A stretch of 64,000 bases of DNA. Source: Chitinophagaceae bacterium IBVUCB2. GTDB lineage: Bacteria; Bacteroidota; Bacteroidia; Chitinophagales; Chitinophagaceae. This document shows positions 9,866 to 25,255 of the stretch, in pieces. Positions within the stretch are counted from its first letter, which is position 1. Every line of letters begins with the position of its first letter. The position numbers and the translations under genes were made by a program. The notes beneath the pieces are model-generated. The model saw only the letters and a list, made by a program, of their open reading frames with translations. It searched no databases and had not been told where the DNA came from. The stretch covers positions 248,001-312,000 of the forward strand of contig NFUV01000003.1 of the NCBI GenBank assembly GCA_002127295.1. Reading direction: 5' to 3'.

Positions 9866-12121
9866 TCAGAATGCCCGTTTATCCTCTTCTTCTCCCATCG
9901 CTATTTTATATGCTTTAATAAATAAAGCACCTAAGTTTTTGTATGGCGGAATATAATCTTCAAACTCTTTTGCCACTACCATTTTATCCAGCTCTTTCCA
10001 GAAAGGTATCCAATCAATATTACTACCTGTTCTTGCCTTATCGGTTAAAAGTTGAAAGAAGGGACGATTTACTTCTGTTGCCCCAATTTGTTTCGAAGCA
10101 ATAATGTGTGCATCCGGTGCCTTTTCCAGTACATCATGAATTAAATGATAACCTCCACATGAACCCAGGAACACAATTTTGGAGGAAGGAAACATTTGCG
10201 CAATGGTAGCATCTGCATAGTAACTATGGCCTCTATGAATTGTTATTGTAGGATATTCCTTTTTGGCTTCCATGTATTCGCACAAAGCTTTCTGAGCTTT
10301 TTCATCTTCTCCACCTTCTTCCGGCAAAGCTCTGTTGGCATAAATAGTAACTGGCTTCCCTTTAGCTGAATTAATAGTAACCCATTGCTTATTACTGTTA
10401 TCTATTCTCCAATTGGCATTGCTAAACATATTTACAAAGCCCCTGAAAATTCCTTGCCCGTCTTTATCACCATAAAAGAACACTTGCATAATTACTCTGC
10501 CACTATCATTTAATAATGATTTGTTAGGCACTTCATATACTGGTGGAATACCAAGCTCCTTTGTCAGATCTATTTTGTTTACTGTGTCAGCAGATAAAAA
10601 AAGATTATTGAGAATTTTATAAATAGCAATCCCTTTTTTATTATTCTGACTAAGGTTTCGTTGATAACATTCCTGCACATTTCGCAGCATCTCATTGGCA
10701 ATAGGTTTTAATGATTCTGCTATACTTGCATAAGAGTCTGCCACGTCTACTCCATCTTCCAAACCATCCGTTTTCTCCAGGTTTTTTACAAATGCTTTCA
10801 TCAATGTGTTCGCCGGGTCTTCTTCATTTGGATTGGTAGATTTAGGAAATGAGCCGAGGAAGTTGCCCAATGTATTGTAACCCGCCGCCATCTTGATCAG
10901 TTTGCGATATTTATCAAAGCTTACCAGTGTTAATAATGAATCGCCCCGGTTCCCAATTTTTTTCATCATCAACGGATATACACCTTTTGTAAAACTGGAG
11001 GTATAAATAGAACCGTCTGATGATACAATCAGGTAATACAACTCTTCTGCACTAAATGGTTGAATACTTCTGAACCGAACCTCGGCACCTTCATTATGTA
11101 AAGCGTTTATCGTTGTTATAAATACATACTTAGCTTTATCTTCTAATTTTTTACCCAGCGATTTATATTCAAATGCAGTATCCTTATTCAGCAACCGTTG
11201 ATAATAATCCATCTGGGTTTTCACCAGCAGTTTATAATATAAAACGGAATCGTCTTTTACATCATCAATTTCACGGATTGTTATTTTGCCATTTACAATG
11301 TTATCCAGGAAAGGAAAATAAAACTGGCCACTTTTGCTTCGGGCCATTGTAGCTATTGTTTTTACAAATACATCATCATTGATATTTCTTATTACAGCAC
11401 CCAACTTACTGTTAGAAGCAGCATAATCATATAATTGTTTGGGGTATTTTCTTGCTACAGCCCTAACAAGGCTATCCGCAAAAGGCATGTCCGGATTTTG
11501 ATACAAGGTCAGGAAAGTTCTCTCAGGATGCAACGCACAAAACTTCAAGACCAAATTGTTTTTTGATGATTTATAACCCGAGTTTTTATCAAATATATTA
11601 GCTCCGAGTAAATTGTTTCCGGCATCATACGACAACGAACTGACTACTTTTTCAATGGATTCGTTTTTTCTGTCCCTGGCAACTGCGGCTTCAAAAGCAT
11701 TAATTATTACCGGAAGATTTGCGGGGTTTACTTTTTTATCGGACTTTATTTTTAAGTTTTGTTTGAAATATTTTAATAGATTTTCCAGGCCTGATAAATA
11801 ATTAACCTTTAAGCGGTGATCCAACACTTTATCCGTTTCCAGCATGTATTGAATTACGTCGACCTTTTTTACCAGTGATTGGGTGATCAGGAAATTGACC
11901 TCTTCGTCTTTTGAAGGAGCAAAAAGCTTATCGGCTTTACCGTCAGATGCCAGAATTGATTTTTGTTCTGCATCGATCGCATCGTGTCGGAGAGTGCGGG
12001 AAAATGAAGGTGTAAAATTCGTCGGAATTTTTACGGTATCTGCCGCACTAACCCCTTGTGCCCTAACAGCCGCTGCACAAAAAATTAACGCTAAAAGGAA
12101 AAGGTATTTGCTCATTGTCAT
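9866..12121 (-). CDS. Large exported protein with a caspase-like (clan CD) His/Cys motif
   Basis: The 751-aa protein has a signal peptide (MSKYLFLLALIFCAAAVRAQ; ATG at 12121 or 12115). Most of it (residues 40-560) is a helical region I do not recognise. The C-terminal region looks like an alpha/beta fold. A hydrophobic strand ends in HRGHS (His629, His632), and a second (KIVFLGSCGG) places Cys655 directly after the strand. That is the arrangement of the catalytic His and Cys of clan CD peptidases (caspase, gingipain, CHAT). The spacing of 23-26 residues is a little short for the clan. Activity is therefore a hypothesis; the domain could be a degenerate relative. A TAACTTTG element lies upstream. 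Confidence 0.75.
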   Translation of the reverse strand: MTMSKYLFLLALIFCAAAVRAQGVSAADTVKIPTNFTPSFSRTLRHDAIDAEQKSILASDGKADKLFAPSKDEEVNFLITQSLVKKVDVIQYMLETDKVLDHRLKVNYLSGLENLLKYFKQNLKIKSDKKVNPANLPVIINAFEAAVARDRKNESIEKVVSSLSYDAGNNLLGANIFDKNSGYKSSKNNLVLKFCALHPERTFLTLYQNPDMPFADSLVRAVARKYPKQLYDYAASNSKLGAVIRNINDDVFVKTIATMARSKSGQFYFPFLDNIVNGKITIREIDDVKDDSVLYYKLLVKTQMDYYQRLLNKDTAFEYKSLGKKLEDKAKYVFITTINALHNEGAEVRFRSIQPFSAEELYYLIVSSDGSIYTSSFTKGVYPLMMKKIGNRGDSLLTLVSFDKYRKLIKMAAGYNTLGNFLGSFPKSTNPNEEDPANTLMKAFVKNLEKTDGLEDGVDVADSYASIAESLKPIANEMLRNVQECYQRNLSQNNKKGIAIYKILNNLFLSADTVNKIDLTKELGIPPVYEVPNKSLLNDSGRVIMQVFFYGDKDGQGIFRGFVNMFSNANWRIDNSNKQWVTINSAKGKPVTIYANRALPEEGGEDEKAQKALCEYMEAKKEYPTITIHRGHSYYADATIAQMFPSSKIVFLGSCGGYHLIHDVLEKAPDAHIIASKQIGATEVNRPFFQLLTDKARTGSNIDWIPFWKELDKMVVAKEFEDYIPPYKNLGALFIKAYKIAMGEEEDKRAF

Positions 12122-12134
12122 AAGGATAGAAAGT

Positions 12135-12142
12135 CAAAGTTA
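12135..12142 (-). promoter_or_regulatory. -7 element of the 751-aa exported protein gene
   Basis: Minus-strand TAACTTTG matches TAnnTTTG 14 bp before the ATG at 12121. No TTTG is visible at the -33 distance, so the promoter may need an activator. Confidence 0.45.
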
Positions 12143-12251
12143 CTAAGCCCGGCCGACATAGACCGTTTATCGGGTTTATTATTGATACAGACGCTTTTAT
12201 ATGGAATAAAGCTGTCTCAGGATCCAAAAACAGCCGCTTTAACGCCATATT

Positions 12252-12280
12252 TATTAAGTTATCATTAAGTCTGTGTAAAC
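12252..12280. promoter_or_regulatory. Possible PhoB-type box (three 11-bp-spaced units)
   Basis: TATTAAG (12252), CATTAAG (12263) and TGTAAAC (12274) start exactly 11 bp apart. They resemble the TGTTAAG units upstream of the receptor at 17718-20516. The site lies in the divergent region between the 751-aa gene and the response regulator gene, so it could serve either. The heptamers are AT-rich and there are only three, so chance is a real alternative. Confidence 0.35.
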
Positions 12281-12316
12281 TGATACCCGCAATTTCCCTG
12301 CCCGCCAAATTCCAGT

Positions 12317-12324
12317 TAGGTTTG
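12317..12324 (+). promoter_or_regulatory. -7 element of the two-component operon
   Basis: TAGGTTTG fits TAnnTTTG 17 bp before the response regulator ATG. No TTTG is visible at the -33 position. Confidence 0.5.
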
Positions 12325-12341
12325 CGAAAACTTTCCAAAAA

Positions 12342-13019
12342 ATGGACAATAAGCCCAGAAAGGTGCTAATTGCTGACGACGAGCCGGATATTTTAGAAAT
12401 ATTGAAATACAATCTTTCAAATGAAGGCTATGAGGTAATAACTGCTAAAGATGGAGATGAAGCCCTGGAAAAAGCCCGCCGTACCCAGCCTGATCTTATT
12501 GTACTAGATGTAATGATGCCTAAAAAAACAGGTGTTGAGGTTTGTCAATTACTACGGGCACAGACCATGTTCAAAGAGACGCTTATTATTTTTCTGACAG
12601 CTGTAAACGACGAAGGCACACAAATAAAAGGACTAGAAACCGGTGCCGATGATTACATAAGCAAACCCATCAGTCCAAAAGTTTTTTTAAGCCGGGTAAA
12701 TGCACTTTTTCGCAGGTTGAATAAAACGGATGCAAGAATTCTCACTATTGAAAATCTTACCATTGACCCGGAAAGGTTTGTTATTATGGTTGGAGAAAAT
12801 GAAATCATACTGGCCAAAAAAGAATTTGAATTGCTTTACCTGTTAGCGTTAAAACCAGGACGGGTTTTCCTGCGGAATGAAATACTGAACCAGGTATGGG
12901 GAAATGATGTAATTGTAGGCGACAGAACAATTGATGTACATATTCGTAAGATTCGGCAAAAACTGGGAATTGATTGTATTACTACGGTAAAGGGAGTTGG
13001 GTACAAATTTGAATTATAA
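12342..13019 (+). CDS. PhoB/OmpR-family response regulator
   Basis: The 225-aa protein is a two-domain transcription factor. The receiver domain (residues 5-120) has the acidic pair Asp12-Asp13, phospho-acceptor Asp56 (LIVLDVMMP), the FLTA threonine and the SKPIS lysine. The winged-helix domain (about 130-225) ends in IRQKLGIDCITTVKGVGYKF, typical of PhoB/OmpR DNA-binding domains. The partner kinase lies 88 bp downstream on the same strand. The nearby phosphate-transport genes with 11-bp tandem operators suggest this is the Pho regulator, but that is inference. A possible autoregulatory box lies at 12252-12280. Confidence 0.92.
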   Translation: MDNKPRKVLIADDEPDILEILKYNLSNEGYEVITAKDGDEALEKARRTQPDLIVLDVMMPKKTGVEVCQLLRAQTMFKETLIIFLTAVNDEGTQIKGLETGADDYISKPISPKVFLSRVNALFRRLNKTDARILTIENLTIDPERFVIMVGENEIILAKKEFELLYLLALKPGRVFLRNEILNQVWGNDVIVGDRTIDVHIRKIRQKLGIDCITTVKGVGYKFEL

Positions 13020-13107
13020 GGTAACGGATGTGGATACCGGGTGTACGGATTTATCCTTTTACCTTTGTCTCAACTGACAGCAGACAAGCTACACCCGACA
13101 GCAGATT

Positions 13108-14157
13108 ATGTTCTCCACAAAAAATATTTCTCCCCGTCAACTCTCGGCATTTACAGCATTAGTGTTGGCAATCCCTATCAGCTTATTGATCGGATATATA
13201 GAAAAAAGTTGGGAGATTGGAGCTATTTGCTTTGCTATCATTTTCGCAGGCAGTTACCTGCTTATATCTTTTATCTTGGAACGTTTTATTTATCGCAAAA
13301 TAAAACTCATCTACAAATTCATTCATCAAACCAAGGCAACCAAGAAAGAAGAAACATATTACAAATATGTATTACCGCAAAAAGATATTGCCCAGGTAAC
13401 AGATGAAGTAGAAGCCTGGGCCGCCGAGCATGAGGAAGAAGTAGAGATGCTACGGAGTATTGAGCAATTTAGAAAAGAGTTTTTGCAAAACCTTTCTCAT
13501 GAATTTAAAACTCCTGTTTTTGCAATTCAAGGATATATCGATACGCTGCTAGCTGGGGCTTTAGAAAACCCGGAAGTCAATAAAAAATTTTTAGAAAAGA
13601 CCGCCAAAAATGTGGAGCGGCTTACACACCTGCTGAATGATCTCGATGAGATTTCAAGCCTGGAAAGAGGGGAGTTGGTTTTATATAAAGAGAATTTTAT
13701 TATACAGGATCTGGTTAGAGAGGTATATGACAGCTTATCAGTAAAAGCAGAGGCAGCAAATATTTTTTGTTCCATTAAAAAAGGCTGCGAATCGCCCTTG
13801 ACTGTTTATGCCGATAAATCAAAAATCCGGCAGGTGCTTACTAATTTAATTGAGAACTCAATTAAATACGGTAAATATGATGGAACCATTACCGCCAGTA
13901 TGTATAAAACAGATGGCAAACATATTTTGATAGAAATAAGTGATGATGGAATAGGTATTAACGAAAAGAACCTGCCCCGGGTTTTTGAACGATTTTACCG
14001 CACCGAAGAAGGCCGCAGTATTGATGTAACAGGAAGTGGGCTGGGCCTTGCTATTTGCAAACACATTATAGAAGCACATCAACAAACCATTCATGTACGT
14101 AGCAGGGAAAATATTGGTACCACTATTGGCTTTACATTGGAAGTAAGGAAGGATTAA
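13108..14157 (+). CDS. Sensor histidine kinase (PhoR-like architecture)
   Basis: The 349-aa protein has two N-terminal transmembrane helices (about residues 14-30 and 38-56) with almost no periplasmic loop, and then a short linker. The dimerisation/phospho-acceptor domain has the H-box LSHEFKTP (His131). The HATPase domain has the N-box (NLIENSIKYG) and G boxes (DDGIGI, GSGLGLAI). The lack of an extracellular sensing domain fits PhoR-type kinases, which receive their signal through other proteins such as PhoU. It follows the response regulator and is probably co-transcribed with it. Confidence 0.92.
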   Translation: MFSTKNISPRQLSAFTALVLAIPISLLIGYIEKSWEIGAICFAIIFAGSYLLISFILERFIYRKIKLIYKFIHQTKATKKEETYYKYVLPQKDIAQVTDEVEAWAAEHEEEVEMLRSIEQFRKEFLQNLSHEFKTPVFAIQGYIDTLLAGALENPEVNKKFLEKTAKNVERLTHLLNDLDEISSLERGELVLYKENFIIQDLVREVYDSLSVKAEAANIFCSIKKGCESPLTVYADKSKIRQVLTNLIENSIKYGKYDGTITASMYKTDGKHILIEISDDGIGINEKNLPRVFERFYRTEEGRSIDVTGSGLGLAICKHIIEAHQQTIHVRSRENIGTTIGFTLEVRKD

Positions 14158-14310
14158 TACCAATCATTTTCAGTTATCAATTCTTTTAAAAACTTCTTGG
14201 GTTCATACTCATTGTATCACTTATTACTTAACCCTTTACATGTAATAAAAATGTTAGCATCCTGCTTCAGTATGCTTAAAATATTATGGGCAGTAAGAAA
14301 AATACAAGGG

Positions 14311-14346
14311 TATAAAAACCACCCCGTCCTGTCTGATACGGGGTGG
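14311..14346 (-). terminator. Orphan intrinsic terminator
   Basis: The stem arms are 14319-14327 and 14338-14346, with a 10-nt loop and the minus-strand U tract at 14311-14318. It faces away from the surrounding plus-strand genes. Confidence 0.6.
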
Positions 14347-14426
14347 CAACTGCTGAGAAAAACTGCATCAGGTATATTGCTTACACATGAGAGATGCAAT
14401 TCCGGACGATGGGTAAAGAACTGCTG
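14311..14426 (-). ncRNA. Candidate small RNA with intrinsic terminator
   Basis: On the minus strand, CATCTTTG (14427-14434, one base off the -7 consensus) could start a transcript of about 110 nt. It would end in a perfect 9-bp hairpin (CCACCCCGT with ACGGGGTGG) followed by UUUUUAUA. No minus-strand gene ends here, so the terminator is otherwise unexplained. A 70-codon frame exists in the region but looks random. No family was recognised. Confidence 0.35.
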
Positions 14427-14582
14427 CAAAGATGTTTATTGATTGTTACGCTATGATTACAGCAAGATTAAGGGAAGGTTATTAAACAGTTTGTTATAGA
14501 CGCCTTACGCATTTATACTGATGTTCTAAAAACTTAATATTACTTTATTGTTAAGTTTTGTAGCTTTAATGCAGTCGCCTCC

Positions 14583-15791
14583 ATGAAAACAAGGTGTTAT
14601 ATATTATCCCTGTTGCTTTTCGTAAGCTTTCTGCCAAAATATACTATTGGCCAGGACAACTATTCTATTATTTCATTTGATTTTTTCGGAAACCCTGTTA
14701 GTTTAAGCCTGGACAAATCCAATGAAATAAGCTTTGGCGAAATACTTAGCCCACAAACACTACAGACATTCCAAAAGACGATTTCTTCCGGGAACTCTGA
14801 TACATTTATTAAAGACCTGCTTGCCTACAAAAAAAAATATCAATTAGACGACTGGCTGTATTACCAGTTGATCAGAAAAACAGCACAACATATAAGTGCT
14901 AAAGCTGAGAACTATTACCGGTACACCCTATATAAGTGGTTTCTTCTTACTAAATCCGGTTATGATGCCACCATAAAAACCAATGGAGAAAAAATTCTTT
15001 TTTATGTGCACACAGAAGAAAGTATCTACAACATACCTTCTTACCTGAAAAATGGCAAGCAATATGTTTGTCTCAATTATCATGACTATGGAGGTTATAT
15101 AGATTTTGAAAAAGAAAAATTTATGGAAGTTGATCTTCCTGTTATCGGAGCGGAGAAAGGGTTCTCGTATAAAATAACCCGATTACCAGAATTTAACCCG
15201 GCTGATTACGAGGATAGAAAACTACAATTTAACTACAAAGAAACTGATTACCAGTTTAAGGTAAAATTGAATCCCCAGATAAAGACAATTTTCGCTAATT
15301 ATCCGGTGGTTGATTATGAATCTTACTTTAATATCCCTCTTAGCAAAGAAACCCATGAATCACTAATCCCTTTATTGAAAAAATATGTGCGGGGGATGAA
15401 TATAAAAAATGGTGTGGATTACCTGATGCATTTTACCCGTTATGCCTTCTTGTTTGAAAAAGACTCGGAAGTATATGGAAAAGAAAAAAGGCTTTCCCCA
15501 GAGCAAACCTTATTATACGAACAAAGCGATTGTGAAGATAGGGTGGCTTTGTTCTTTTCGCTGGTTAAAGAAATTTATAACCTGCCGATGATAGTACTGG
15601 CTTATCCCGAACATGTAACAATAGCCGTAAAGTTTAATAAACCAGTTGGCACCCCCATTATATATAACGGAATGAAATATTCTGTTTGTGAGCCTACGCC
15701 ACAAAAACAAGATCTTGCTGTTGGCCAGTTATCCCGTAATCTGAAAAAGGAACGATATGAAATTGTTTACGCATATGCTCCATCCCGCTAA
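14583..15791 (+). CDS. Exported transglutaminase-like (papain-fold) protein
   Basis: The 402-aa protein has a signal peptide (KTRCYILSLLLFVSFLPKYT, ending IGQ). The C-terminal third carries a transglutaminase-like core: Cys317 in SDCEDRVALFFSLVKEI, His344 in YPEHVTIAV and an acidic residue in VCEPT (Glu370). That is the order and spacing of the Cys-His-Asp/Glu triad. The N-terminal 300 residues are not recognised. It is probably a periplasmic cysteine peptidase or a related enzyme. It is transcribed towards a small lipoprotein gene on the other strand, 7 bp away. A weak TATTACT/TGTTAAG pair at 11-bp spacing precedes it (14538-14555). Confidence 0.75.
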   Translation: MKTRCYILSLLLFVSFLPKYTIGQDNYSIISFDFFGNPVSLSLDKSNEISFGEILSPQTLQTFQKTISSGNSDTFIKDLLAYKKKYQLDDWLYYQLIRKTAQHISAKAENYYRYTLYKWFLLTKSGYDATIKTNGEKILFYVHTEESIYNIPSYLKNGKQYVCLNYHDYGGYIDFEKEKFMEVDLPVIGAEKGFSYKITRLPEFNPADYEDRKLQFNYKETDYQFKVKLNPQIKTIFANYPVVDYESYFNIPLSKETHESLIPLLKKYVRGMNIKNGVDYLMHFTRYAFLFEKDSEVYGKEKRLSPEQTLLYEQSDCEDRVALFFSLVKEIYNLPMIVLAYPEHVTIAVKFNKPVGTPIIYNGMKYSVCEPTPQKQDLAVGQLSRNLKKERYEIVYAYAPSR

Positions 15792-15798
15792 AAGTTAA

Positions 15799-16236
15799 TT
15801 ACTCTTGCCGTCCGGGTAACACCGTCACATTTTTCTCCAGGCTGTTCAATAATTCTTTTGCATCATCACTCATGCAGGTAAAATATTTTTCACCAGTCTT
15901 AATAAAAGAAAGTGTCATGCAATCTTTGTTGCGGGAAAAATAAACCGTTTCAACAGTCCCGGCTTTGCCATAAAAATAAATTTTACCCTGTGTAACACAA
16001 GTATCTTTTGCTTTAATAACATTTCCATTAACATCATTCGCAATAACGGGTAAAGGATTCTTTAGAATCACCTTTGTCATATTAAAGAAACGTGGATCAC
16101 CGGGTGCATGATAGTACATTACAACAGCACTGTCACTTTCAGGCAATGCAGGAAGCATTTTAATCATATTTGTTTTATTCTTACACCCAATAACAAACAG
16201 ACTGCAGCAACAAACTAACAAGCTAACTATCTTCAT
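15799..16236 (-). CDS. Small lipoprotein of unknown function
   Basis: The 145-aa protein starts with a lipoprotein signal (MKIVSLLVCCCSLFVIGC, lipobox FVIG-Cys18). The mature part is beta-rich with no family I recognise. It contains several cysteines (CVTQGKIYF, NKDCMTLSF, TCMSDD) that could pair in the periplasm. It converges with the transglutaminase-like gene. The upstream spacer holds the terminator of the next minus-strand operon, so it should have its own promoter. Confidence 0.7.
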   Translation of the reverse strand: MKIVSLLVCCCSLFVIGCKNKTNMIKMLPALPESDSAVVMYYHAPGDPRFFNMTKVILKNPLPVIANDVNGNVIKAKDTCVTQGKIYFYGKAGTVETVYFSRNKDCMTLSFIKTGEKYFTCMSDDAKELLNSLEKNVTVLPGRQE

Positions 16237-16261
16237 AAACTATCCTTTTAATACTAAAATT

Positions 16262-16289
16262 AAAAACGTCCTGAAAAATTTCAGGACGT
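16262..16289 (-). terminator. Terminator of the receptor/beta-helix lipoprotein operon
   Basis: Arms ACGTCCTGAAA (16266-16276) and TTTCAGGACGT (16279-16289) form a perfect 11-bp stem. On the minus strand it is followed by UUUUUA. It lies 28 bp past the stop at 16317. Confidence 0.88.
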
Positions 16290-16316
16290 GGAAAATTATT
16301 TTAAATCACTTCTAAA

Positions 16317-17669
16317 TTAATAAGCAGCATTCTGAGGATCCCAGTTTGCCCAACCACTTGTCCAATTGGTTGCACCAAATGCACCACGATAAGCTGTGCT
16401 GGTAAAGAAAGCATTCATACCTGCGAAGCTTGAACCTGCTAATGCAGGTGACCCTACAGCTGGTAAGAAGTTTGGTGAAGTTGAATAAAAAGGATTGGTT
16501 AACATTATTGCAGCAGATGTTGCATACGTATTACATCCTTCAGCTTCTGCTTTAGTTTGTATTTGTGCATTAGTTGCTAAAGCTACGTTGGCAGTTTTAT
16601 AAGGAAGCGTTGTAGCATGTACCATGTTATTCTTAAACTCTGAGACACCAGTGGTATAATAATCATTAAGAGTGTTATCAGATTCCATAGAAAAACCAGC
16701 ATCTGGATGCCCCATTAAAATTGAATTTCGCAAAATAAACTGAGTTGATCTTCTCCACCTATTCGAAAAATTATGATTCCCTGCTGTTCCTGCTGCATCA
16801 TTTGGTCCAACAAAAGTAAAATTGCTTAGCTGTGGTTTAGTACGGGGAGACACTGTTGTACCAGCAGCATCGTTATCACACTCAATAGCATTACCAGCAT
16901 CACCGGCATCTACAAAATCAGGTTTGCGACAAGAAACTCCAAACTGTATTTTACCAGTGTAACCAAAGTCAAAATCAAAATCATCATCAGCCGTAGCAAA
17001 AGCAACCAGGTTTTTTGCATTCACGGTGCCTCCGAAAAATTCAAACGCATCATCATTACCAAACGATACTTGTATATTTTCCAAAATAGTACCTGAGCCT
17101 ACACCACCACAAGTCAATCCATTAATTTCAGAACCAGGCTCTGCAGCAATACCTGCATATTCAATACGAACAAAACGAAGGATACCGCTTTCATCTAACG
17201 GGTCTGTTCCGCCATATTGACGACCTACACCACCTTCAATAGTTGGAGCAGGGTCAAGGGGACGATTCGTTGGTGCTTTACCCAATAAAATAATTCCACC
17301 CCAATCACCAGGTGCTCTTGAGCCAACAGGCTTACCACTGGTAAACACAATTGGGTTAACGGCTGTGCCTGATGCTACTAACTTAGCTCCTCTTTCAATT
17401 ATCAAAGCTCCTTTTTCAGTTATATCACTTTTTACAATACATCCAGCCTCAAATGTAATAGTTGCGCCATCAGTTACATATACATACCCTTTCAATATCC
17501 AGGTGCCTTTAGCATAAAATTTACTAGATGAGATAACACCACTAATAATATTACTGGTAGGGTCGGGTGGTGCTATCACTGCATCGCCTTCATCAAAATT
17601 CACTTTTACACAAGAAGTGAAGCTGAAGGTTGTAGCCAGAATCAGCGTTCCCAAAAAAAACTTTTTCAT
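16317..17669 (-). CDS. Surface lipoprotein with beta-helix-like repeats, partner of the upstream receptor
   Basis: The 450-aa protein has a lipoprotein signal (MKKFFLGTLILATTFSFTSC, Cys20). The body has the short repeating beta strands of a right-handed parallel beta-helix (ITFEAGCIVKSDITEKGALI; GTILENIQVSFGNDDAFEFF; LRNSILMGHPDAGFSM). An acidic loop, ADDDFDFDFG, could bind metal. It starts 48 bp after the stop of the 932-aa TonB-dependent receptor and shares its terminator. Co-transcription suggests it takes the place SusD-type lipoproteins have next to SusC receptors. Given the surrounding phosphate genes it may bind a phosphorus compound; that is inference only. Confidence 0.82.
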   Translation of the reverse strand: MKKFFLGTLILATTFSFTSCVKVNFDEGDAVIAPPDPTSNIISGVISSSKFYAKGTWILKGYVYVTDGATITFEAGCIVKSDITEKGALIIERGAKLVASGTAVNPIVFTSGKPVGSRAPGDWGGIILLGKAPTNRPLDPAPTIEGGVGRQYGGTDPLDESGILRFVRIEYAGIAAEPGSEINGLTCGGVGSGTILENIQVSFGNDDAFEFFGGTVNAKNLVAFATADDDFDFDFGYTGKIQFGVSCRKPDFVDAGDAGNAIECDNDAAGTTVSPRTKPQLSNFTFVGPNDAAGTAGNHNFSNRWRRSTQFILRNSILMGHPDAGFSMESDNTLNDYYTTGVSEFKNNMVHATTLPYKTANVALATNAQIQTKAEAEGCNTYATSAAIMLTNPFYSTSPNFLPAVGSPALAGSSFAGMNAFFTSTAYRGAFGATNWTSGWANWDPQNAAY

Positions 17670-17717
17670 ATCAATTTTTGTTTTTGTTGTTTTTAATTTT
17701 ATAGTCAGTTCTGATAG

Positions 17718-20516
17718 TTATTTTTTCCCGATATTAAAATCGTAGGTAAATCCAATTGTAATAGTAGAGCCCGGTGTATATGAGTTGAACAATCTGTCGC
17801 TGCCGCTGTTAAATGCTTTTTTGCTGTCCACATTTTCATAGAAGTAAAAAGGATTGTTCAAAATATCAGCCCAGGTAAGTTTTACTTCGCCCCTGCTTTT
17901 CATTACTTTCTTTGCTAATTGAAAATCTACCTGGTCACGGGGTCTTTCATAGATGTCTGGAAAATCCAGGTTACCTACTAATGAAAGTCGCTGGCCAATT
18001 CTGTTATATAATAAGGAACCACTCCATTCGCCTTGCTTGCTATTGTATTGCAATCCAACGTTAGCCAAGTAAGGCGACTGTCCCTGCAATGGGCGATTTA
18101 CAGAAGTTGCTACACCACCTGCTGTAGTACCCGATAAAGTAACTTTTGAATAGCTGTAAGTAAGATTTGCAAACACACTAAAATTGTCAAGTGATTTAGC
18201 CAGGAAGTCCAGGTTCTTTCTTACTTCAAACTCGGCGCCAACTGTATATGCGTTATCAACATTGCTATAGCCGTAATTTCTTCTGTCCAATACACTCGAT
18301 GGATCAAGACGCAATTCAATCGGGTCATCAAAGTATTTGTAAAAAGCTCCTATAGTAATTGCTTCTCCTCCTTTAGGATAAAACTCATATCGAACATCCC
18401 CATTTAAAATAGAAGTTCTTTTCAAATTTAAATTCCCGTTTACTCCATAATTAGCTTCATAATCATAAAATGAGAATGGAGCAATTTCCCTGAACTCTGG
18501 TCTTGCAACAGTACGGCTACCAGATACCCGAATACTATTCTTTACATTAGGTGATAGTGTAAAGTTGAATGAAGGCAAGACATCCCATTTTTCAGTATCA
18601 ACAACTACTCTTTTAGATGTAACATCTTTTGTTGTCAGGAATTGCTGAAAATTTTCAACCCGTACGCCCCATACTAATCTTATTTTTTCGCCAAACTTGC
18701 TGTCAAACATTCCATACATACCATTAAGAATAGATACACCGAAGTATTTATCCTGGTTATTGGTAAAGTCATTTAATACAAATCCATCATTGGCAATATT
18801 AGAAGGTGCAAAAATCTGGTTGTAAGGCAACTCTGCTTTATTTGCATCGAACTGTGTAGGAGATGCTGGTTGGTATTGGAATATGCGGCTACGGAAGTCA
18901 CGGATACGAATCAATGTAGAACCGCCGGTTTTAAAAATTTGCTTACTGTTTTTTACAGTAAAAGGTATCGTAAGACTTCCATTGGCTCCATAGCTATAAT
19001 CTTGCAGGTTGCTGAAAAAGCGACGGGTATCATCATCATTATATTCAAAAGCACTAGTTGATCCTTTTGAACGGAAATAAGCCGACGTTCGTAAATCAGG
19101 TTGTGATTTTCCGTTGTAGGCAAAGTTGCCATTCCATTTTAATTTAATACCGCTTGTCGTCAATTGATGATCACCTTCTAACTGAGCACTGTATAATGAA
19201 CGTTGATTTAATACGGATGAACGAAAATTAATTTCCTGAATACGGTCATCATTGTATCCGCTTCTTACGTAATAATTATCTTCAAAAAGCTGGTTGAATA
19301 AGTTTTTAAAAGAGATTTTATGTCTTCCCTTTACATAAGAAATATTAGCAATGGCTCCTGTATTTACGCTGTACTTATTTTGATTATCATTTAGTACTAC
19401 AATTGCATCACCATCCTGCTCATGCAATCTTCTTTGCACATTGTATTGCAACATGCTGTTGCGATACTGCACAGAAAGAATTGTACCAAGCACTCCCCCG
19501 TTTTTAAACTTTGTACTCTTACCCCAGGTAAGGCTGTAGGTTTGAGTAGGAAGTGCTTTGTTGTTTACTTCACTGTACACATCGTTATTAAGTAATTGGC
19601 TCCAGGCTATTTTTTGTTGCGTGGTGCCAATACGATATTGTTGCTGAGTTTTTGGAAATCCTTCCGGCAAGCTTCTTGTTTTGTCATCAAAACCCAGCCA
19701 ATCCCTTCCATTTCTTTCATTGCTGGTAAAATCGTTGAATACTGATTGTGTATTAAAGCCCAATGCTACACTTACAGTTAATAGATCTCTTGTAGGTACA
19801 TCTTTTGTATTGATTTGTACCAGGCCCCCTGCAAACTCTCCCGGTAATTCCGGTGTAGCCGTTTTATTAATAATAATATTATCAATAAGCGAAGAAGGAA
19901 TTACATCAAATGAAAATGCTTTTTTATCAGGCTCTGTGCTGGGTAATTGTGCATTATTAATAACAGCAGAATTATAACGGTCGCTCAATCCACGAACCAC
20001 TACAAACTTGCCATCCTGGATACTGGCTCCACTAACTCTTTTTAAAACCTCTCCTGTATTTCTATCCGGTGTACGACGAATGAAGTCCGCAGCTAACCCA
20101 CTTGATAAAGCTGTGTTGCTTCGTTGAAAAGTAAGTAGAGCCGCGGTGTTCTCCTGCTTTCTGGATGTTGTTTTAATGACAACTCCTTCCAAATTGGATT
20201 TATCTTCCAGCACAATCTCCAGGTAATTTTCCTGGTTAATTGTTACATCAACATCTGAAATAGATTTGGTTTGATAGCCGGTGTTTGATACGGTAAGTGT
20301 GTACTTCTTTCCAGCCTCCAGAGAAATGTAAAATTTACCTTCAATGTCAGCCAGTACTTGTTTGCCGGCCCCATCAATGATAATTGTAGCTCCTGGCAAA
20401 GCTTCGTTCCGGGCATTTATTACTTTACCGGAAAGCTTAATAGTTTGAGCCTGGACTATTGCAAAAATGCCGATTGAAAGAAGCAAAGTAATGACGATTC
20501 GAAGCCTGAAGTACAT
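17718..20516 (-). CDS. TonB-dependent receptor, probably Pho-regulated
   Basis: The 932-aa protein has a signal peptide (RIVITLLLSIGIFAIVQAQ), a carboxypeptidase-regulatory-like domain (IKLSGKVINARNEALPGATI, residues 25-110), a plug (RRTPDRNTGEVLKRVSGASI and KFVVVRGLSDRYNSAVINNA, about 145-240), and then a 22-strand type barrel. It acts in the outer membrane and imports a ligand with TonB energy. Six 11-bp-spaced operator units and a -7 element stand directly upstream. The next gene encodes a surface lipoprotein. Upstream lies an OprP-type porin on the same strand, and then PiT on the other. The ligand is unknown; a phosphorus-containing compound is the contextual guess. Confidence 0.92.
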   Translation of the reverse strand: MYFRLRIVITLLLSIGIFAIVQAQTIKLSGKVINARNEALPGATIIIDGAGKQVLADIEGKFYISLEAGKKYTLTVSNTGYQTKSISDVDVTINQENYLEIVLEDKSNLEGVVIKTTSRKQENTAALLTFQRSNTALSSGLAADFIRRTPDRNTGEVLKRVSGASIQDGKFVVVRGLSDRYNSAVINNAQLPSTEPDKKAFSFDVIPSSLIDNIIINKTATPELPGEFAGGLVQINTKDVPTRDLLTVSVALGFNTQSVFNDFTSNERNGRDWLGFDDKTRSLPEGFPKTQQQYRIGTTQQKIAWSQLLNNDVYSEVNNKALPTQTYSLTWGKSTKFKNGGVLGTILSVQYRNSMLQYNVQRRLHEQDGDAIVVLNDNQNKYSVNTGAIANISYVKGRHKISFKNLFNQLFEDNYYVRSGYNDDRIQEINFRSSVLNQRSLYSAQLEGDHQLTTSGIKLKWNGNFAYNGKSQPDLRTSAYFRSKGSTSAFEYNDDDTRRFFSNLQDYSYGANGSLTIPFTVKNSKQIFKTGGSTLIRIRDFRSRIFQYQPASPTQFDANKAELPYNQIFAPSNIANDGFVLNDFTNNQDKYFGVSILNGMYGMFDSKFGEKIRLVWGVRVENFQQFLTTKDVTSKRVVVDTEKWDVLPSFNFTLSPNVKNSIRVSGSRTVARPEFREIAPFSFYDYEANYGVNGNLNLKRTSILNGDVRYEFYPKGGEAITIGAFYKYFDDPIELRLDPSSVLDRRNYGYSNVDNAYTVGAEFEVRKNLDFLAKSLDNFSVFANLTYSYSKVTLSGTTAGGVATSVNRPLQGQSPYLANVGLQYNSKQGEWSGSLLYNRIGQRLSLVGNLDFPDIYERPRDQVDFQLAKKVMKSRGEVKLTWADILNNPFYFYENVDSKKAFNSGSDRLFNSYTPGSTITIGFTYDFNIGKK

Positions 20517-20532
20517 ACCTGGTTATTTCCGG

Positions 20533-20540
20533 CAAAGGTG
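20533..20540 (-). promoter_or_regulatory. -7 element of the 932-aa receptor gene
   Basis: Minus-strand CACCTTTG is one base off TAnnTTTG, 17 bp before the ATG at 20516. The region where TTTG (-33) should be is occupied by the tandem operator array. That is the usual arrangement for a promoter that depends on an activator. Confidence 0.5.
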
Positions 20541-20549
20541 TGCTCAGGA

Positions 20550-20611
20550 GGTTACCGGCAGGTTACCTACATGTTAAGCAATTATAACCTCAATGTTACC
20601 GTAATGTTAAG
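20550..20611 (-). promoter_or_regulatory. Six-unit tandem operator, PhoB/PhoP-box-like
   Basis: Read on the plus strand, heptamers start at 20550 (GGTTACC), 20561 (GGTTACC), 20572 (TGTTAAG), 20583 (TATAACC), 20594 (TGTTACC) and 20605 (TGTTAAG). All five steps are exactly 11 bp, leaving 4-bp spacers. In the direction of the receptor gene the units read CTTAACA, GGTAACA, GGTTATA, CTTAACA, GGTAACC, GGTAACC. PhoB and PhoP bind 7-bp or 6-bp repeats at 11-bp spacing (E. coli CTGTCAT; B. subtilis TTAACA). The last unit ends 9 bp from the -7 element. The array fills the gap between the porin stop (20619) and the receptor promoter. Confidence 0.7.
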
Positions 20612-20618
20612 CAGGAAA

Positions 20619-21956
20619 TTAAAAGCGAAATTGAAGGCGGCACGTAAAAATATCGTCCTTCAGGTCGGCAGTATTACCAGCCATTTGAGTGCTTTTATTC
20701 TTTACAATATCATAATATAAGATAAGCTTGGTTTGAGGGTTTAAATGATAAGCATACCCTAACCCTAGTGTTGAAAATTTTATATCTGCTACGGTAAGAT
20801 TAGTCCCGGAACTTCCGATTTCTGCTTCTTTTACTTTTATATTAGGATCATACCAATCATACTTTATCATTAACTGGTGGTTTGTATTAACTATGTTTTG
20901 TAAAAAAAGCAAGAAGGCCCCATCAAAATGCCGAACATACGTGGGGACAGCATTCCCGTTCGAAGTTGGTAAGGTTCCGGGATTACTGGTAGAAGCCGAT
21001 GTTCCTGGCTGCGTGCCAAACCAATACTCAGCTCTCCACTCCGTTTCTCCCCAGCCATGTTTTAATTTAACCTGTGCATCAGCCCCATAATAATGGCGGG
21101 GTGAAGATTTTCCTAGATTAGATACTGCTGAATCAACAAGGTAAATATTTTCCCCATTGATGCCTTTTCCCATTTCATAAACATATTTAGTCCCATTCTT
21201 CCAACCACCTCTAAGAAAAGATAAACCGCCTGTCAGTTCAATATGATCAAATAAATAAGGCTTAATAAACAACCTTGAGATAAGGTCTTTGTGGCTATCA
21301 AAATCTGTGGTACCAGAAAGACCCTGACCATTAAAAAAACCCACATCAAACTTGATATGTGATAACTTATGATTTTTATTTTGCGGTTCAAAAGAAACCA
21401 TCATTCCAATATCTCTTTCAGACGGCATTAGTATTTGCGACATCCGCCCCCTCTCCGGGGTTTCCCGAAATGCAGAAGAAAGATTTACCTCATAGCCAAA
21501 TGGACGGGCAAACAAGCCTGCCGTCAATGAAAAAATGTTCTTCCTGGTTTCAAAAAGTTTTAGAAACATATCTCTTACAATCACTCCTCTTTCTGTGGCA
21601 TCAATTTGAAAAGAGAAAAGAGCTTTTGGATATCGTGTTGCAGAAGGTAGCAAATAGTCAATCTTCACTCTTGCCCGGCGGAGCATAAACCGGCTGCTGG
21701 AAAACTGAGAAAAATTTCCCCCTCCGTAGGCCGGTGCACCATCAGACTGTGCTTTTTGAAATTGTGGCTGGATGTAACCGGTAATCCGCAAGTTTTCAAA
21801 ACGCTTTATCACTGGTCTCACGGTATCTTTAATAAAAAATAAAGAGTCGATATCTGACAAATATCTTTGAGAATAGGACTTTACGCAAAAAATGCTTGTA
21901 AAAAGAATGACTAAAAGACCTTTTATCCTCAACTGTTTTGCCCAAAACATGTTCAA
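20619..21956 (-). CDS. Phosphate-selective porin O/P family (OprP-like)
   Basis: The 445-aa protein has a signal peptide (LLVILFTSIFCVKSYSQ) and alternating beta strands ending in ...CRLQFRF, with the C-terminal Phe used by outer membrane barrels. Segments such as LRITGYIQPQFQKAQSDGAP, RARVKIDYLLPSA and LTAGLFARPFGYEV are typical of the OprP/OprO family. Pseudomonas OprP passes phosphate, but many family members have other substrates. Here the divergent neighbours are a PhoU-like protein and a PiT phosphate transporter, which supports the phosphate role. An 11-bp-phased operator array lies 29 bp upstream of the ATG, next to TATATTGC, a possible -7 element (21970-21977). Confidence 0.88.
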   Translation of the reverse strand: MNMFWAKQLRIKGLLVILFTSIFCVKSYSQRYLSDIDSLFFIKDTVRPVIKRFENLRITGYIQPQFQKAQSDGAPAYGGGNFSQFSSSRFMLRRARVKIDYLLPSATRYPKALFSFQIDATERGVIVRDMFLKLFETRKNIFSLTAGLFARPFGYEVNLSSAFRETPERGRMSQILMPSERDIGMMVSFEPQNKNHKLSHIKFDVGFFNGQGLSGTTDFDSHKDLISRLFIKPYLFDHIELTGGLSFLRGGWKNGTKYVYEMGKGINGENIYLVDSAVSNLGKSSPRHYYGADAQVKLKHGWGETEWRAEYWFGTQPGTSASTSNPGTLPTSNGNAVPTYVRHFDGAFLLFLQNIVNTNHQLMIKYDWYDPNIKVKEAEIGSSGTNLTVADIKFSTLGLGYAYHLNPQTKLILYYDIVKNKSTQMAGNTADLKDDIFTCRLQFRF

Positions 21957-21984
21957 TTTTTAAATTGATGCAATATAAAATCTT

Positions 21985-22046
21985 TGTTATTGAAACGTTA
22001 CCTTAATTTTATTTCTATATTAACAAATTATTAATTCTCCTTACCC
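21985..22046. promoter_or_regulatory. Second 11-bp-phased array between porin and DUF47/PiT genes
   Basis: On the plus strand TGTTATT (21985), CGTTACC (21996), TTTTATT (22007), TATTAAC (22018) and TATTAAT (22029) start 11 bp apart. CTTACCC follows at 22040, also in phase but shifted by one base in pattern. A perfect CTTAACA lies at 22046-22052, out of phase. The first two units match the receptor array best; the others are looser. The array lies 7 bp from a possible porin -7 element, and TATTTTCG (22074-22081) may be the -7 element of the DUF47 gene. Confidence 0.5.
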
Positions 22047-22120
22047 TTAACACCCTTCATTAATTCTACCCGGTATTTTCGCACATCATTCGGCAGCAGC
22101 CGATATAAAAACTACGAAAT

Positions 22121-22768
22121 ATGGCACTACAATCGTTTTTGAAAATCTTCATGCCGAAGAACAAAATTTTTTATGAGCTTTTTGAAAAGGTAGCAGATAA
22201 TGCTGCCAAAATGGGTTCTATCCTACGGGATATTGTGGCGGAGCCTGATTTCGATAAAAGAGGTGCTTTAATATTACAAGTAGAAGATCTGGAACATGCG
22301 AATGATGAGTTGACACATAATATTTTTACAGAGCTTGGCAGAAATTTTATTACCCCGTTCGATAGAGAAGATATTCACTACCTCGCTACATCACTGGATG
22401 ATATTGCAGATTATATTTACGCTGCTGCAAAAAAAATAAACTTCTACCGGGTTAATCCCAATGATACAGGTATGCAAAAATTTGCTGAGCTGATTGAACA
22501 AGGAGCCCAGCAGGTTAAGATTGCTGTTACAGAGTTGCGTGATATGAAAAATATGCGGAACATCACGGAAGCTTTGGTAAAGATCAACAGTATCGAAAAC
22601 CAGGCAGACGATGTGTTTGATTTCAGCATTGAAAAATTATTTGCTACCGAACCGGATGCAAAAGAAGTAATTAAGAAAAGGGAAATTTACCAGGTAATGG
22701 AAATTGTTACCGATAAATGTGAAGATGCAAGTAATGTGATAGAATCTATAATTATTAAATACGCTTAA
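22121..22768 (+). CDS. DUF47 / PhoU-like protein, PiT partner
   Basis: The 215-aa all-helical cytoplasmic protein belongs to the DUF47 (PhoU_div) family. It has the acidic helix motifs that hold metal in PhoU relatives (LEDLEHANDELTH-like stretch near residue 58, DREDIHYLATSLDDIADYIY near 86-105, NSIENQADDVFDF near 157). Members of this family are usually encoded next to PiT transporters and are thought to modulate them. Here the PiT gene follows 78 bp later on the same strand. A short stem (AGTTT-TCGG-AAACT, 22791-22804) lies in the spacer and may affect relative expression. Confidence 0.9.
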   Translation: MALQSFLKIFMPKNKIFYELFEKVADNAAKMGSILRDIVAEPDFDKRGALILQVEDLEHANDELTHNIFTELGRNFITPFDREDIHYLATSLDDIADYIYAAAKKINFYRVNPNDTGMQKFAELIEQGAQQVKIAVTELRDMKNMRNITEALVKINSIENQADDVFDFSIEKLFATEPDAKEVIKKREIYQVMEIVTDKCEDASNVIESIIIKYA

Positions 22769-22846
22769 TAATTGTAAATGTGCAAATGTTAGTTTTCGGA
22801 AACTGTATTTAAATTTCACATTCACACATTTTCTAACTGACTTCTT

Positions 22847-24049
22847 ATGACAACTTTCCTAATAGTAATTATAGCATTAGCCCTGATATTTGATTATATC
22901 AATGGTTTTCATGATGCTGCTAATTCCATAGCAACTATCGTTTCTACCAAGGTCCTTACTCCTTTCCAGGCGGTATTATGGGCAGCTTTGTTTAATTCAG
23001 TTGCCTTCTTCATTTTTAAAGATCATGGTGTAGCCGATACAGTGGCTAAGACAGTTAAGCCGGACTGGGTTGGCCCCAATATGATGGTGGTTATTTTTTC
23101 GGGACTGATAGCTGCTATTCTCTGGAATTTATTGACCTGGTGGTTGGGCATTCCTTCTTCTTCTTCACACACATTAATAGGAGGGTTTGCTGGTGCGGCT
23201 GTTGCAGCGGGTGGATTTGGTGCAGTAAACTCGCCAATCATTCTTAAAACGGCGGCCTTTATATTTATTGCTCCTGTAGTCGGGATGCTAATGGCATTTT
23301 TCATGTCGCTTTGGTTTCTTAGTTCCTTTAAAAAAGGGTGGACCTCAAAAATATTTTCCATACTGGTACTCATTTTTGTAGCAGTATTTCTTTACGTTAG
23401 CCTGCAAACAGACCCGGCTAAACTTAAATCTGATTACGATTCGCATATTATGAATGTGATCATGTATTCTAAGAATTTTAAATGGATACTGCTTTCATTT
23501 ATTCTAGTTACAATGGCTGTATTTGCATTATATCTCAGTAATATGAATGCACACAAAGCCAATGTATGGTTTAAAAAACTGCAGCTGATCTCATCTGCCG
23601 CCTTTAGTATAGGTCATGGCGGTAATGATGCGCAAAAAGTAATGGGTATTATAACAGCCGCTTTGATAGCAGGTGGAAGTATTACAAATATCAGTGAAAT
23701 GCCCAACTGGGTGCCTATTTCATGTTATGCGGCAATAGGTTTGGGAACCATGAGTGGTGGTTGGAAGATTGTAAAAACCATGGGAACCAAGATCACAAAA
23801 GTTACCCCTTTTGAAGGTGTGGCAGCAGAAACAGCCGGTGCTCTTACTTTGTTTATTACAGAGGCTCTAAAAATTCCTGTAAGCACCACTCACACTATTA
23901 CGGGTGCTATTATGGGTGTGGGTGCCACCAAAAGATTATCAGCTGTAAGATGGGGAGTAACGGTTAGTCTTTTATGGGCCTGGATACTTACTATACCGAT
24001 TAGCGGTTTGCTGGCAGCAGGTATTTATAATATTGCCATCCTCTTTTAA
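22847..24049 (+). CDS. PiT-family inorganic phosphate transporter
   Basis: The 400-aa protein has about ten transmembrane helices. Two inverted-repeat signatures of the PiT family are intact: NGFHDAANSIATIVSTKVLT (about residues 20-40) and GHGGNDAQKVMGIITAALIA (about 258-277), each with its Asn-Asp or His-Asp core. It would take up phosphate with H+ or Na+ across the inner membrane. It follows the DUF47 gene in one operon and is closed by a terminator 20 bp after its stop. The divergent porin gives a complete outer-to-inner membrane route. Confidence 0.93.
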   Translation: MTTFLIVIIALALIFDYINGFHDAANSIATIVSTKVLTPFQAVLWAALFNSVAFFIFKDHGVADTVAKTVKPDWVGPNMMVVIFSGLIAAILWNLLTWWLGIPSSSSHTLIGGFAGAAVAAGGFGAVNSPIILKTAAFIFIAPVVGMLMAFFMSLWFLSSFKKGWTSKIFSILVLIFVAVFLYVSLQTDPAKLKSDYDSHIMNVIMYSKNFKWILLSFILVTMAVFALYLSNMNAHKANVWFKKLQLISSAAFSIGHGGNDAQKVMGIITAALIAGGSITNISEMPNWVPISCYAAIGLGTMSGGWKIVKTMGTKITKVTPFEGVAAETAGALTLFITEALKIPVSTTHTITGAIMGVGATKRLSAVRWGVTVSLLWAWILTIPISGLLAAGIYNIAILF

Positions 24050-24070
24050 TTCAATCCAATTTATTAAAAT

Positions 24071-24098
24071 AAAAATCCTGACTTTTGTCGGGATTTTT
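24071..24098 (+). terminator. Terminator of the DUF47-PiT operon
   Basis: Arms AAAAATCCTGAC (24071-24082) and GTCGGGATTTTT (24087-24098) pair fully with one G-U, around a TTTT loop. A U run follows. Confidence 0.88.
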
Positions 24099-24199
24099 TA
24101 TGAAATGAGGTATAAAAATTATCGAGCAATTTATTTTAACTGCGATGATAATTTTTATACCGAATTGCATGTGGCAAATCCACATTGTCAAATAGACAC

Positions 24200-25255
24200 A
24201 TGAACAAAATATTAGTAACAGGTGGCTGCGGCTACATCGGATCACACACCATCGTAGATTTAATTGAACATGGATATGATGTTATTTCAGTTGATAATAA
24301 CTCCCGGTCAAATCCCGTCATATTAAAAGGTGTTGAACAAATAACCGGTAAAAAGATAAAAACCTACAAAGTAGACCTCTGTAACTTTGATGATACGTTT
24401 GCTATTTTCCAGGAGAATACAGATATAAGCGGCGTAATACACTTTGCAGCTTATAAAGCGGTGGGTGAATCAGTAGAAAATCCATTGCTTTATTTTGAGA
24501 ATAACCTTACTTCTTTAATTAACCTGCTAAAATGTGTGCAGGAATTTCATACACCCCATTTTGTTTTTTCCTCCTCCTGCACTGTATATGGCAACCCCGA
24601 TGAAGTACCGGTTACAGAAAACACTCCATTAAAAATGGCTGAATCGCCTTATGGTTATACCAAGCAAATGAGTGAGCAGATCATTGGTGAGTTTTCAAAA
24701 AGTGCTGGCACGCAATGTATATTATTACGATATTTCAATCCTGCCGGAGCACATCCTTCATCTATTATTGGAGAAATGCCTTTAGGAAAACCTCAAAACC
24801 TTGTTCCGGGAATCACACAGACAGCCATAGGCCGGCTTGCCAAAATGATGGTGCATGGCAATGATTATGATACAAGGGATGGCTCCTGTATAAGAGACTA
24901 TATTCATGTATGTGATTTGGCAAATGCACACACACTTTCATTGCAATATTTAGAAGAAGCAAAAAATAGCAAGCAATGTGAGGTCTTTAACCTCGGCAGC
25001 GGTAATGGAATTTCGGTACTTGAAGCTATTAATGCATTTGAAAAAATTAGTGGCGTTAAATTGAATTATGAAATCGGACCCCGTAGACCTGGCGATGTAA
25101 TAGCTACTTACGCAAATAACAATCTGGCCAAACAAGTCCTTGGATGGGCTCCAAAATTTTCGTTGGAAGATATTATGGCCACTGCCTGGAAATGGGAACA
25201 ACGGTTAAAGGCGGATGAAACGGTTTTTGGAAGCCAATATGGTGAGTTGAATTAG
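24200..25255 (+). CDS. galE: UDP-glucose 4-epimerase
   Basis: GalE interconverts UDP-glucose and UDP-galactose for the Leloir pathway and for surface polysaccharides. ATG 24200 is chosen because the NAD-binding Rossmann motif (ILVTGGCGYIGSH, GxxGxxG) must begin right at the N-terminus; the open frame itself reaches back to TTG 24185. The 351-aa protein has the SSSCTVYG segment with the catalytic Ser/Thr and the SPYGYTK segment with the Tyr-x-x-x-Lys pair. Length and C-terminal substrate domain (RRPGDVIATYAN) are normal. It lies between the phosphate operon and a transketolase gene, with no obvious functional link. Confidence 0.95.
   Translation: MNKILVTGGCGYIGSHTIVDLIEHGYDVISVDNNSRSNPVILKGVEQITGKKIKTYKVDLCNFDDTFAIFQENTDISGVIHFAAYKAVGESVENPLLYFENNLTSLINLLKCVQEFHTPHFVFSSSCTVYGNPDEVPVTENTPLKMAESPYGYTKQMSEQIIGEFSKSAGTQCILLRYFNPAGAHPSSIIGEMPLGKPQNLVPGITQTAIGRLAKMMVHGNDYDTRDGSCIRDYIHVCDLANAHTLSLQYLEEAKNSKQCEVFNLGSGNGISVLEAINAFEKISGVKLNYEIGPRRPGDVIATYANNNLAKQVLGWAPKFSLEDIMATAWKWEQRLKADETVFGSQYGELN

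Follow-up and report, generated by a model that had tools for sequence, protein, structure and literature searches.

What controls a TonB-dependent receptor gene that is preceded by six evenly spaced copies of one short sequence? The question arises in a stretch of 64,000 nucleotides from Chitinophagaceae bacterium IBVUCB2 (the window; positions are counted from its first letter), which belongs to contig 3 of a 4.0-Mb genome. A sequence-only reading had placed heptamers at an 11-bp spacing at 20550, 20561, 20572, 20583, 20594 and 20605 and likened them to the operators of PhoB and PhoP. Read straight from the window sequence, all six units start at exactly these positions. We conclude that the array is very likely a PHO box, in which 11-bp head-to-tail half-sites ([G/T]TAACAT, or KTAACAT) would be bound by a phosphorylated regulator of the PhoB/PhoP type, most likely the one encoded at 12342-13019.

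The array and the genes behind it

On the receptor strand, from 20611 to 20546, the units read CTTAACATTAC GGTAACATTGA GGTTATAATTG CTTAACATGTA GGTAACCTGCC GGTAACCTCCT; the third deviates from the core, and the matrix rates the sixth lowest (1.9). Self-matching at lag 11 reached 33 of 55 letters at 20544, the window maximum across lags 7-15, and none of 100,000 shuffles of 20546-20611 equalled the array's own 32 of 55. With a matrix built from 29 relatives, own site excluded, the array scored 38.6, compared with a maximum of 9.9 in 6,000 shuffles. It occupies a 102-bp gap between the porin stop (20619) and the receptor start (20516), and nine bases lie between its last 11-mer and the TTTG of a −7 element, CACCTTTG. 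This element has five of the six fixed letters of TAnnTTTG, the −7 consensus of flavobacterial sigma-A promoters (PMC9723704). The array shows two marks of a PHO box, namely direct repeats of 11-nt period with about seven conserved letters each, and a fixed place beside the core promoter in which they replace the −35/−33 element.

The receptor was matched in 146 of 147 genomes of the family, and the 30 best loci, own included, were analysed (100 to ∼40% identity). The sequence-only reading had named beforehand, as a finding that would refute it, a loss of the 11-bp phase from the promoters of orthologs; all 30 keep the phase. When units were extended freely, TTTG lay 19 bp from the last unit in 28 homologs, and L011 and L022 were missed because their fifth unit is weak. 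When the reading was anchored on TTTG, all 30 were in phase, 17 with six units and 13 with four, and under this rule the number was never five (L008, in the four-unit class, has an isolated sixth position scoring 3.5 and no fifth unit). All 30 promoters scored at least 21.3, whereas the shuffle maximum was 9.9. At 11 bp the mean best score was 37.9, and every other spacing from 7 to 16 gave less than −14, a difference that is partly circular because the matrix was trained at 11 bp.

The array also recurs before other genes. In 80 PhoR-centred loci of Chitinophagaceae (1.38 Mb), 56 arrays scored at least 18, compared with one in three block-shuffled copies. By our tally these precede 13 receptor, 4 partner and 3 porin genes and 36 others: 9 PlcP-like genes, 6 PF01663/PF01676 phosphatases, 3 genes of other outer-membrane receptors (OMP_b-brl_4 with PF13620), 15 small RNAs and 3 unclear cases (Pfam was run on four of the nine PlcP-like proteins, all PF12850, and on all six phosphatases and all three OMP_b-brl_4 proteins). 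One locus, L154 (Terrimonas ferruginea), is also in the matrix training set. A receptor array was found in 13 of the 22 loci with a receptor homolog; in eight of the nine misses the gene extends to less than 150 bp from the end of the locus sequence, and the ninth, L193, is a partial match (28%). At a score of at least 15, arrays precede 5 of 18 partner and 3 of 4 porin genes. There was none directly before galE (0 of 19), the ABC transporter (0 of 41) or p145 (0 of 3), and two uncharacterised neighbours had one in 1 of 70 and 1 of 13 loci, both scoring below 18. Beyond the 30 receptor promoters, 37 of 41 other arrays of at least 18 in the PhoR loci have runs of four or six units; the exceptions are the L142 and L146 receptors with five (sixth unit −0.9 and −0.1), L149:15308 with five and the L172 receptor with seven.

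Other searches started from the pattern. A family pattern (three units, up to two mismatches) matched 53 places, overlaps counted separately, in 42 of 147 genomes, and its backward control matched 4. Judged from the N-terminus of the following protein, 30 of these loci, some of which overlap the 30 receptor homologs, comprise 21 before TonB receptors, 6 before porins, 2 before a dnaB-like gene and 1 before nothing clear. In nine genomes (G018, G030, G035, G062, G065, G105, G112, G127 and G144) a PF12849 (PstS-like) gene lies 1.4-1.6 kb past the array on the same strand, with a porin-like open reading frame between them, by reading without Pfam, in six. The dnaB-like gene, for which the N-terminus is the sole basis of the name, follows the pattern in two genera (∼1500-1700 in L053 and L063, the latter being the L215 site). 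A phylum pattern (four units, one mismatch) matched 64 places, spread over 49 of the 395 genomes, compared with 8 backwards; a single simple repeat (G148) accounts for six of the 64. Among 30 phylum loci examined, TTTG lay at 19 bp in 18, at 18 bp in one and at neither in 11, and ten downstream proteins run through Pfam comprised three receptors, four Porin_O_P, one Porin_5, one PF12849 and one phosphonate-binding PF12974 protein.

In searches that started from genes, 20 PhoX matches in the family were reduced to 16 by removing one second gene piece and three without a visible 5′ end. Nine of the 16 score at least 10.3, the highest value among 400 shuffled loci, although L077 merely equals it at one decimal. 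Of the best 30 PstS loci, 10 reach a score of 18 and 12 reach 12 within ∼1.56 kb upstream; the ten arrays of at least 18 all lie ∼1.4 kb upstream, and four of the misses (L253, L255, L257 and L264) have a family-pattern array just beyond the scored stretch. A third mark of a PHO box is thus present, in that the array is common to phosphate-acquisition genes (PhoX in the family, PstS, PlcP-like genes and phosphatases).

A probable phosphate operator and its alternatives

The PhoB/PhoP-type phosphate reading, first put forward from the sequence alone, is supported by the sharing of one array among PhoX, porin-PstS, PlcP-like and PF01676 genes and the receptor operon, and by the response of matching families in Flavobacterium johnsoniae, in which they are induced by depletion of inorganic phosphate (Pi). 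As to the binder, the regulator at 12342-13019 has receiver and winged-helix Trans_reg_C domains, and its two best NCBIfam families are TIGR02154 and NF053854 (PhoB). Its DNA-binding domain alone has E. coli PhoB as the best PDB match (E 8.7e-20), and the recognition helix, which makes the DNA contacts, is very similar in the two proteins (DRTIDVHIRKIRQKL here, DRTVDVHIRRLRKAL in E. coli PhoB). The nearest named relatives of the kinase at 13108-14157 are from Chitinophagaceae; the closest record overall is L135 (94%).

Several observations weigh against this reading or narrow it. The pair had been called PhoB/PhoR-like, which holds for the regulator as far as its best family goes; the curated cut-offs are not reached by the regulator (226.5 vs 296.2 and 218.7 vs 270 for the two PhoB families) or by the kinase (for PhoR), and the best PDB match of the full-length regulator is MtrA. 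In the PhoR loci no array lies directly before the kinase (0 of 80), the regulator (0 of 77) or PhoU (0 of 28). Porin and PiT had both been named as genes to be searched for the array; the window porin has its own, weaker one (21970-22035), and PiT has none (0 of 21). Because receptor promoters formed the training set of the matrix, scores on these promoters are partly circular, and the family pattern was written after receptor promoters had been inspected. That pattern has no match in the window's own genome, where a four-unit pattern matched 28 places, not above its backward controls (25); since these matches are at background, the three window arrays are singled out by matrix score and position alone. 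Among genomes of the same class or order but of other families, only G148 (the simple repeat), G173 and G433 match the phylum pattern, and ahead of the phosphonate-binding gene TTTG lies 24 bp from the array rather than 19. Class-wide, 28 PhoX loci gave 23 with a visible 5′ end, of which only 4 beat 200 shuffles, so that the operator claim for PhoX is confined to the family, and among the 30 loci for PstS 18 stay under a score of 12. Finally, OprP of F. johnsoniae (Fjoh_0542) was not Pi-induced (PMC8115612), whereas the window porin has an array.

The array-free promoters of the pair and its scores below the PhoB and PhoR cut-offs would also fit a true phosphate-regulon operator of the OmpR/PhoB type that is bound by a regulator encoded elsewhere, with the neighbouring pair serving another role. 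We consider this unlikely, since, of 20 neighbourhoods of the receptor (each at most 20 kb), 10 contain the kinase and 9 the whole pair, since the DNA-binding domain with its recognition helix is nearest to that of E. coli PhoB, and since phoBR of F. johnsoniae adjoins a Pi-induced receptor (PMC8115612). The array could instead answer another envelope or nutrient signal, such as ArcA-like redox, iron or carbon, given that more than one OmpR-family regulator may use 11-bp TTAACA-like repeats and that the roles of TonB receptors are varied; the PhoP motif of Riemerella anatipestifer was likened to that of ArcA by its authors (PMC9603813), and TonB receptors predominate among the pattern matches. 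The array is, however, common to PhoX, PstS, PlcP-like and phosphatase genes, F. johnsoniae responds to Pi depletion by inducing several of the matching families, and its phosphorus-responsive loci without known function are, according to the authors, tightly repressed under nitrogen and iron limitation (PMC8115612), which together make this alternative quite improbable.

Two further explanations concern the repeat itself. An E. coli-type (sigma-70) promoter, TTAACA-18-TATAAT, can be read within the array at 20610-20581 with 11 of 12 letters, the best promoter-like match of 12100-24200, and the periodicity would then be incidental. We rejected this candidate because the TATAAT in unit 3 is lost in homologs whereas the 11-bp phase and the distance to TTTG are kept; flavobacterial sigma-A promoters moreover carry TAnnTTTG (PMC9723704), and we regard a sigma-70 type promoter as very improbable. 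A functionless repeat, due to chance or low complexity, would account for the off-core unit 3 and for own-genome matches at background, yet it is hard to reconcile with a fixed geometry in 30 of 30 homologs and with 56 arrays in the PhoR loci as opposed to one in shuffled copies, and its probability appears negligible.

If the array is a PHO box for the neighbouring regulator, low phosphate would lead the kinase to phosphorylate the regulator, whose dimers may then occupy pairs of units, two dimers on four-unit and three on six-unit operators; the mostly even unit numbers fit such dimer-wise occupancy. The last dimer, which would sit 19 bp from TTTG and cover the −33 region, could substitute for the missing −33 box through contact with sigma-A, and the receptor and its partner protein would be switched on. 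Through the common operator, receptors, phosphatases and porins with PstS would form one regulon together with a small RNA and with PlcP for lipid remodelling. In the open-licence PubMed Central literature searched, as far as its text was available, we found no definition of a PHO box for Bacteroidota. The rule KTAACAT, 11 bp, usually four or six units and 19 bp to TTTG would make the phosphate regulon of Chitinophagaceae readable from sequence, and the mostly even unit number would allow binding of the operator dimer by dimer to be tested cleanly.

Neighbouring features and a candidate small RNA

Features of the window at the receptor and phoR loci
Feature	Position	Strand	Basis
Array of six 11-bp direct repeats (consensus KTAACAT), the proposed PHO operator for receptor and partner	20546..20611	-	sequence, matrix, self-match, homologs
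−7 element CACCTTTG (Bacteroidota TAnnTTTG)	20533..20540	-	TTTG 19 bp after position 2 of last unit
TonB-dependent receptor (CarbopepD_reg_2, Plug, beta-barrel)	17718..20516	-	domain matches
450-amino-acid receptor partner, predicted beta-helix, no Pfam match	16317..17669	-	downstream of receptor
Porin, weak Porin_O_P match (E 0.011, below cut-off)	20619..21956	-	Pfam
Second array, weaker, before porin; best four units 21.6	21970..22035	-	matrix scan
Third array, four units, 23.2; TTTG 14430-14427, 19 bp off	14440..14483	-	candidate small RNA promoter
Candidate array-driven small RNA, ends inferred	14312..14422	-	hairpin 14346-14319 then T-run
OmpR/PhoB-family response regulator, proposed binder	12342..13019	+	domains, NCBIfam, PDB
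PhoR-like histidine kinase, below PhoR cut-offs	13108..14157	+	NCBIfam
PhoU-like protein (PhoU_div, DUF47), without array	22121..22768	+	domain matches, matrix scan
PiT-type phosphate transporter (PHO4), without array	22847..24049	+	domain matches, matrix scan

The partner protein adjoins the receptor in all 20 neighbourhoods sampled. Its beta-helix model is confident, yet PDB gave no match at E 0.001 or better, and identity with the F. johnsoniae lipoprotein FII, of which the partner may be the counterpart, is therefore merely suggested. Among porin homologs, L115 and L131 lie above the Porin_O_P cut-off, L120 lies just below it and L132 has no match. The second array lacks TTTG at the usual 19 bp and has ATTG nearby. 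A 751-amino-acid protein (9866-12121, minus strand) has a homolog in 70 of the 80 PhoR loci.

Elsewhere in the genome, two array-like sites score above 20, both single cases. The first (24.5; L103, ∼1499-1542, C1:1944.7 kb) precedes a choice-of-anchor-I lipoprotein (PF22494), which is possibly the counterpart of the Pi-induced Fjoh_3414. The second (23.8; L095, C1:986.3 kb) precedes a gene judged to be deaminase-like from reading alone, and has no TTTG at the usual distance.

In the window, the third array is followed by a candidate small RNA whose hairpin and T-run have a fold z-score of −3.1. An Rfam 15 scan of 14100-14600 gave no family match up to E 5, and an own-genome search for long complementarity returned only the RNA itself. 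We compared 19 sites, sought in phoR neighbourhoods only: the window and 18 of 22 array sites (L149, L190, L194 and L201:16610 were dropped). Each has four units without a positive unit directly flanking them, some with weak inner units, and 13 of the 19 have TTTG (8) or TTTA (5) at 19 bp. TTCTCA occurs downstream in 15. The RNA lies ∼0.1 to 8 kb from phoR and, in all but L151, on the opposite strand. A MAFFT alignment and covariance model gave no consensus pairs, so that conservation is borne by promoter geometry, TTCTCA and terminators judged by eye, and not by covariation.

A model of the RNA sequence alone gave 21 matches, of which 4 are training sites (L123 is the same site as L154) and 17 are others. 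Six of these, with E below 0.01 (L165, L189, L182, L163, L148 and L118), are preceded at 64-98 nt by an array-like stretch with scores of 4.3 to 17.2; of 300 random windows taken from the respective locus, 0 to 8 scored as high. The other 11, weaker matches show mixed array evidence. We think it reasonably probable that the Chitinophagaceae PHO operator also drives a conserved phosphate-starvation small RNA near phoR, mostly opposite and downstream, which would silence targets via UUCUCA. Its plan would be four units, a −7 element and, in most cases, ∼70-120 nt with UUCUCA shortly before an intrinsic terminator; the target, and pairing through UUCUCA, are speculation. The window terminator precedes the phoR stop codon, so that only a read-through transcript could act on phoR as an antisense RNA. 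Two further arrays, at L201:16610 (minus strand) and L149:15308 (plus strand), are followed by terminator-like hairpins unlike the main small RNA and perhaps drive other RNAs. The literature searched, in so far as its text was available, yielded no such small RNA in this phylum; if true, it would add a post-transcriptional layer to the phosphate response.

Comparison with known systems

The PHO box of E. coli PhoB likewise lies beside the core promoter, but its unit is CTGTCAT whereas ours is KTAACAT, here usually in four or six copies at a fixed distance from a −7 TAnnTTTG. Closer is the PhoP box of B. subtilis, whose TTAACA repeats have an 11-bp period, four repeats serving two dimers; it resembles the array in unit, period and four-repeat arrangement and differs from it in phylum, sigma factor and promoter, and in that up to six units, and seven in L172, occur here.

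Within Bacteroidota, PhoB of Bacteroides fragilis shifts a pstC promoter fragment in a gel, and the available portion of that account contained no defined site (PMC3547664). For R. anatipestifer PhoP, a regulator of the same family, DNA affinity purification sequencing (DAP-seq) gave the motif TTTAACA, so that a Bacteroidota protein binds the same core; the available text of that study held no tandem 11-bp layout or phosphate regulon (PMC9603813). The regulon of F. johnsoniae, compared by gene family and not by sequence or promoter, comes without an operator in the part of the account at hand (PMC8115612). Its content is similar: Pi depletion induced the phoBR-linked receptor Fjoh_0545 with lipoprotein FII (Fjoh_0546), and the Pi-induced genes also include the lipoprotein Fjoh_3414. 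The phoBR-linked receptor and lipoprotein, the pf13620 receptor (Fjoh_3841), PhoX (Fjoh_2478), PlcP (pf12850, Fjoh_4577) and the pf01676 phosphatase (Fjoh_2225) are strongly Pi-induced families shared with the genes that follow the array in Chitinophagaceae (PMC8115612).
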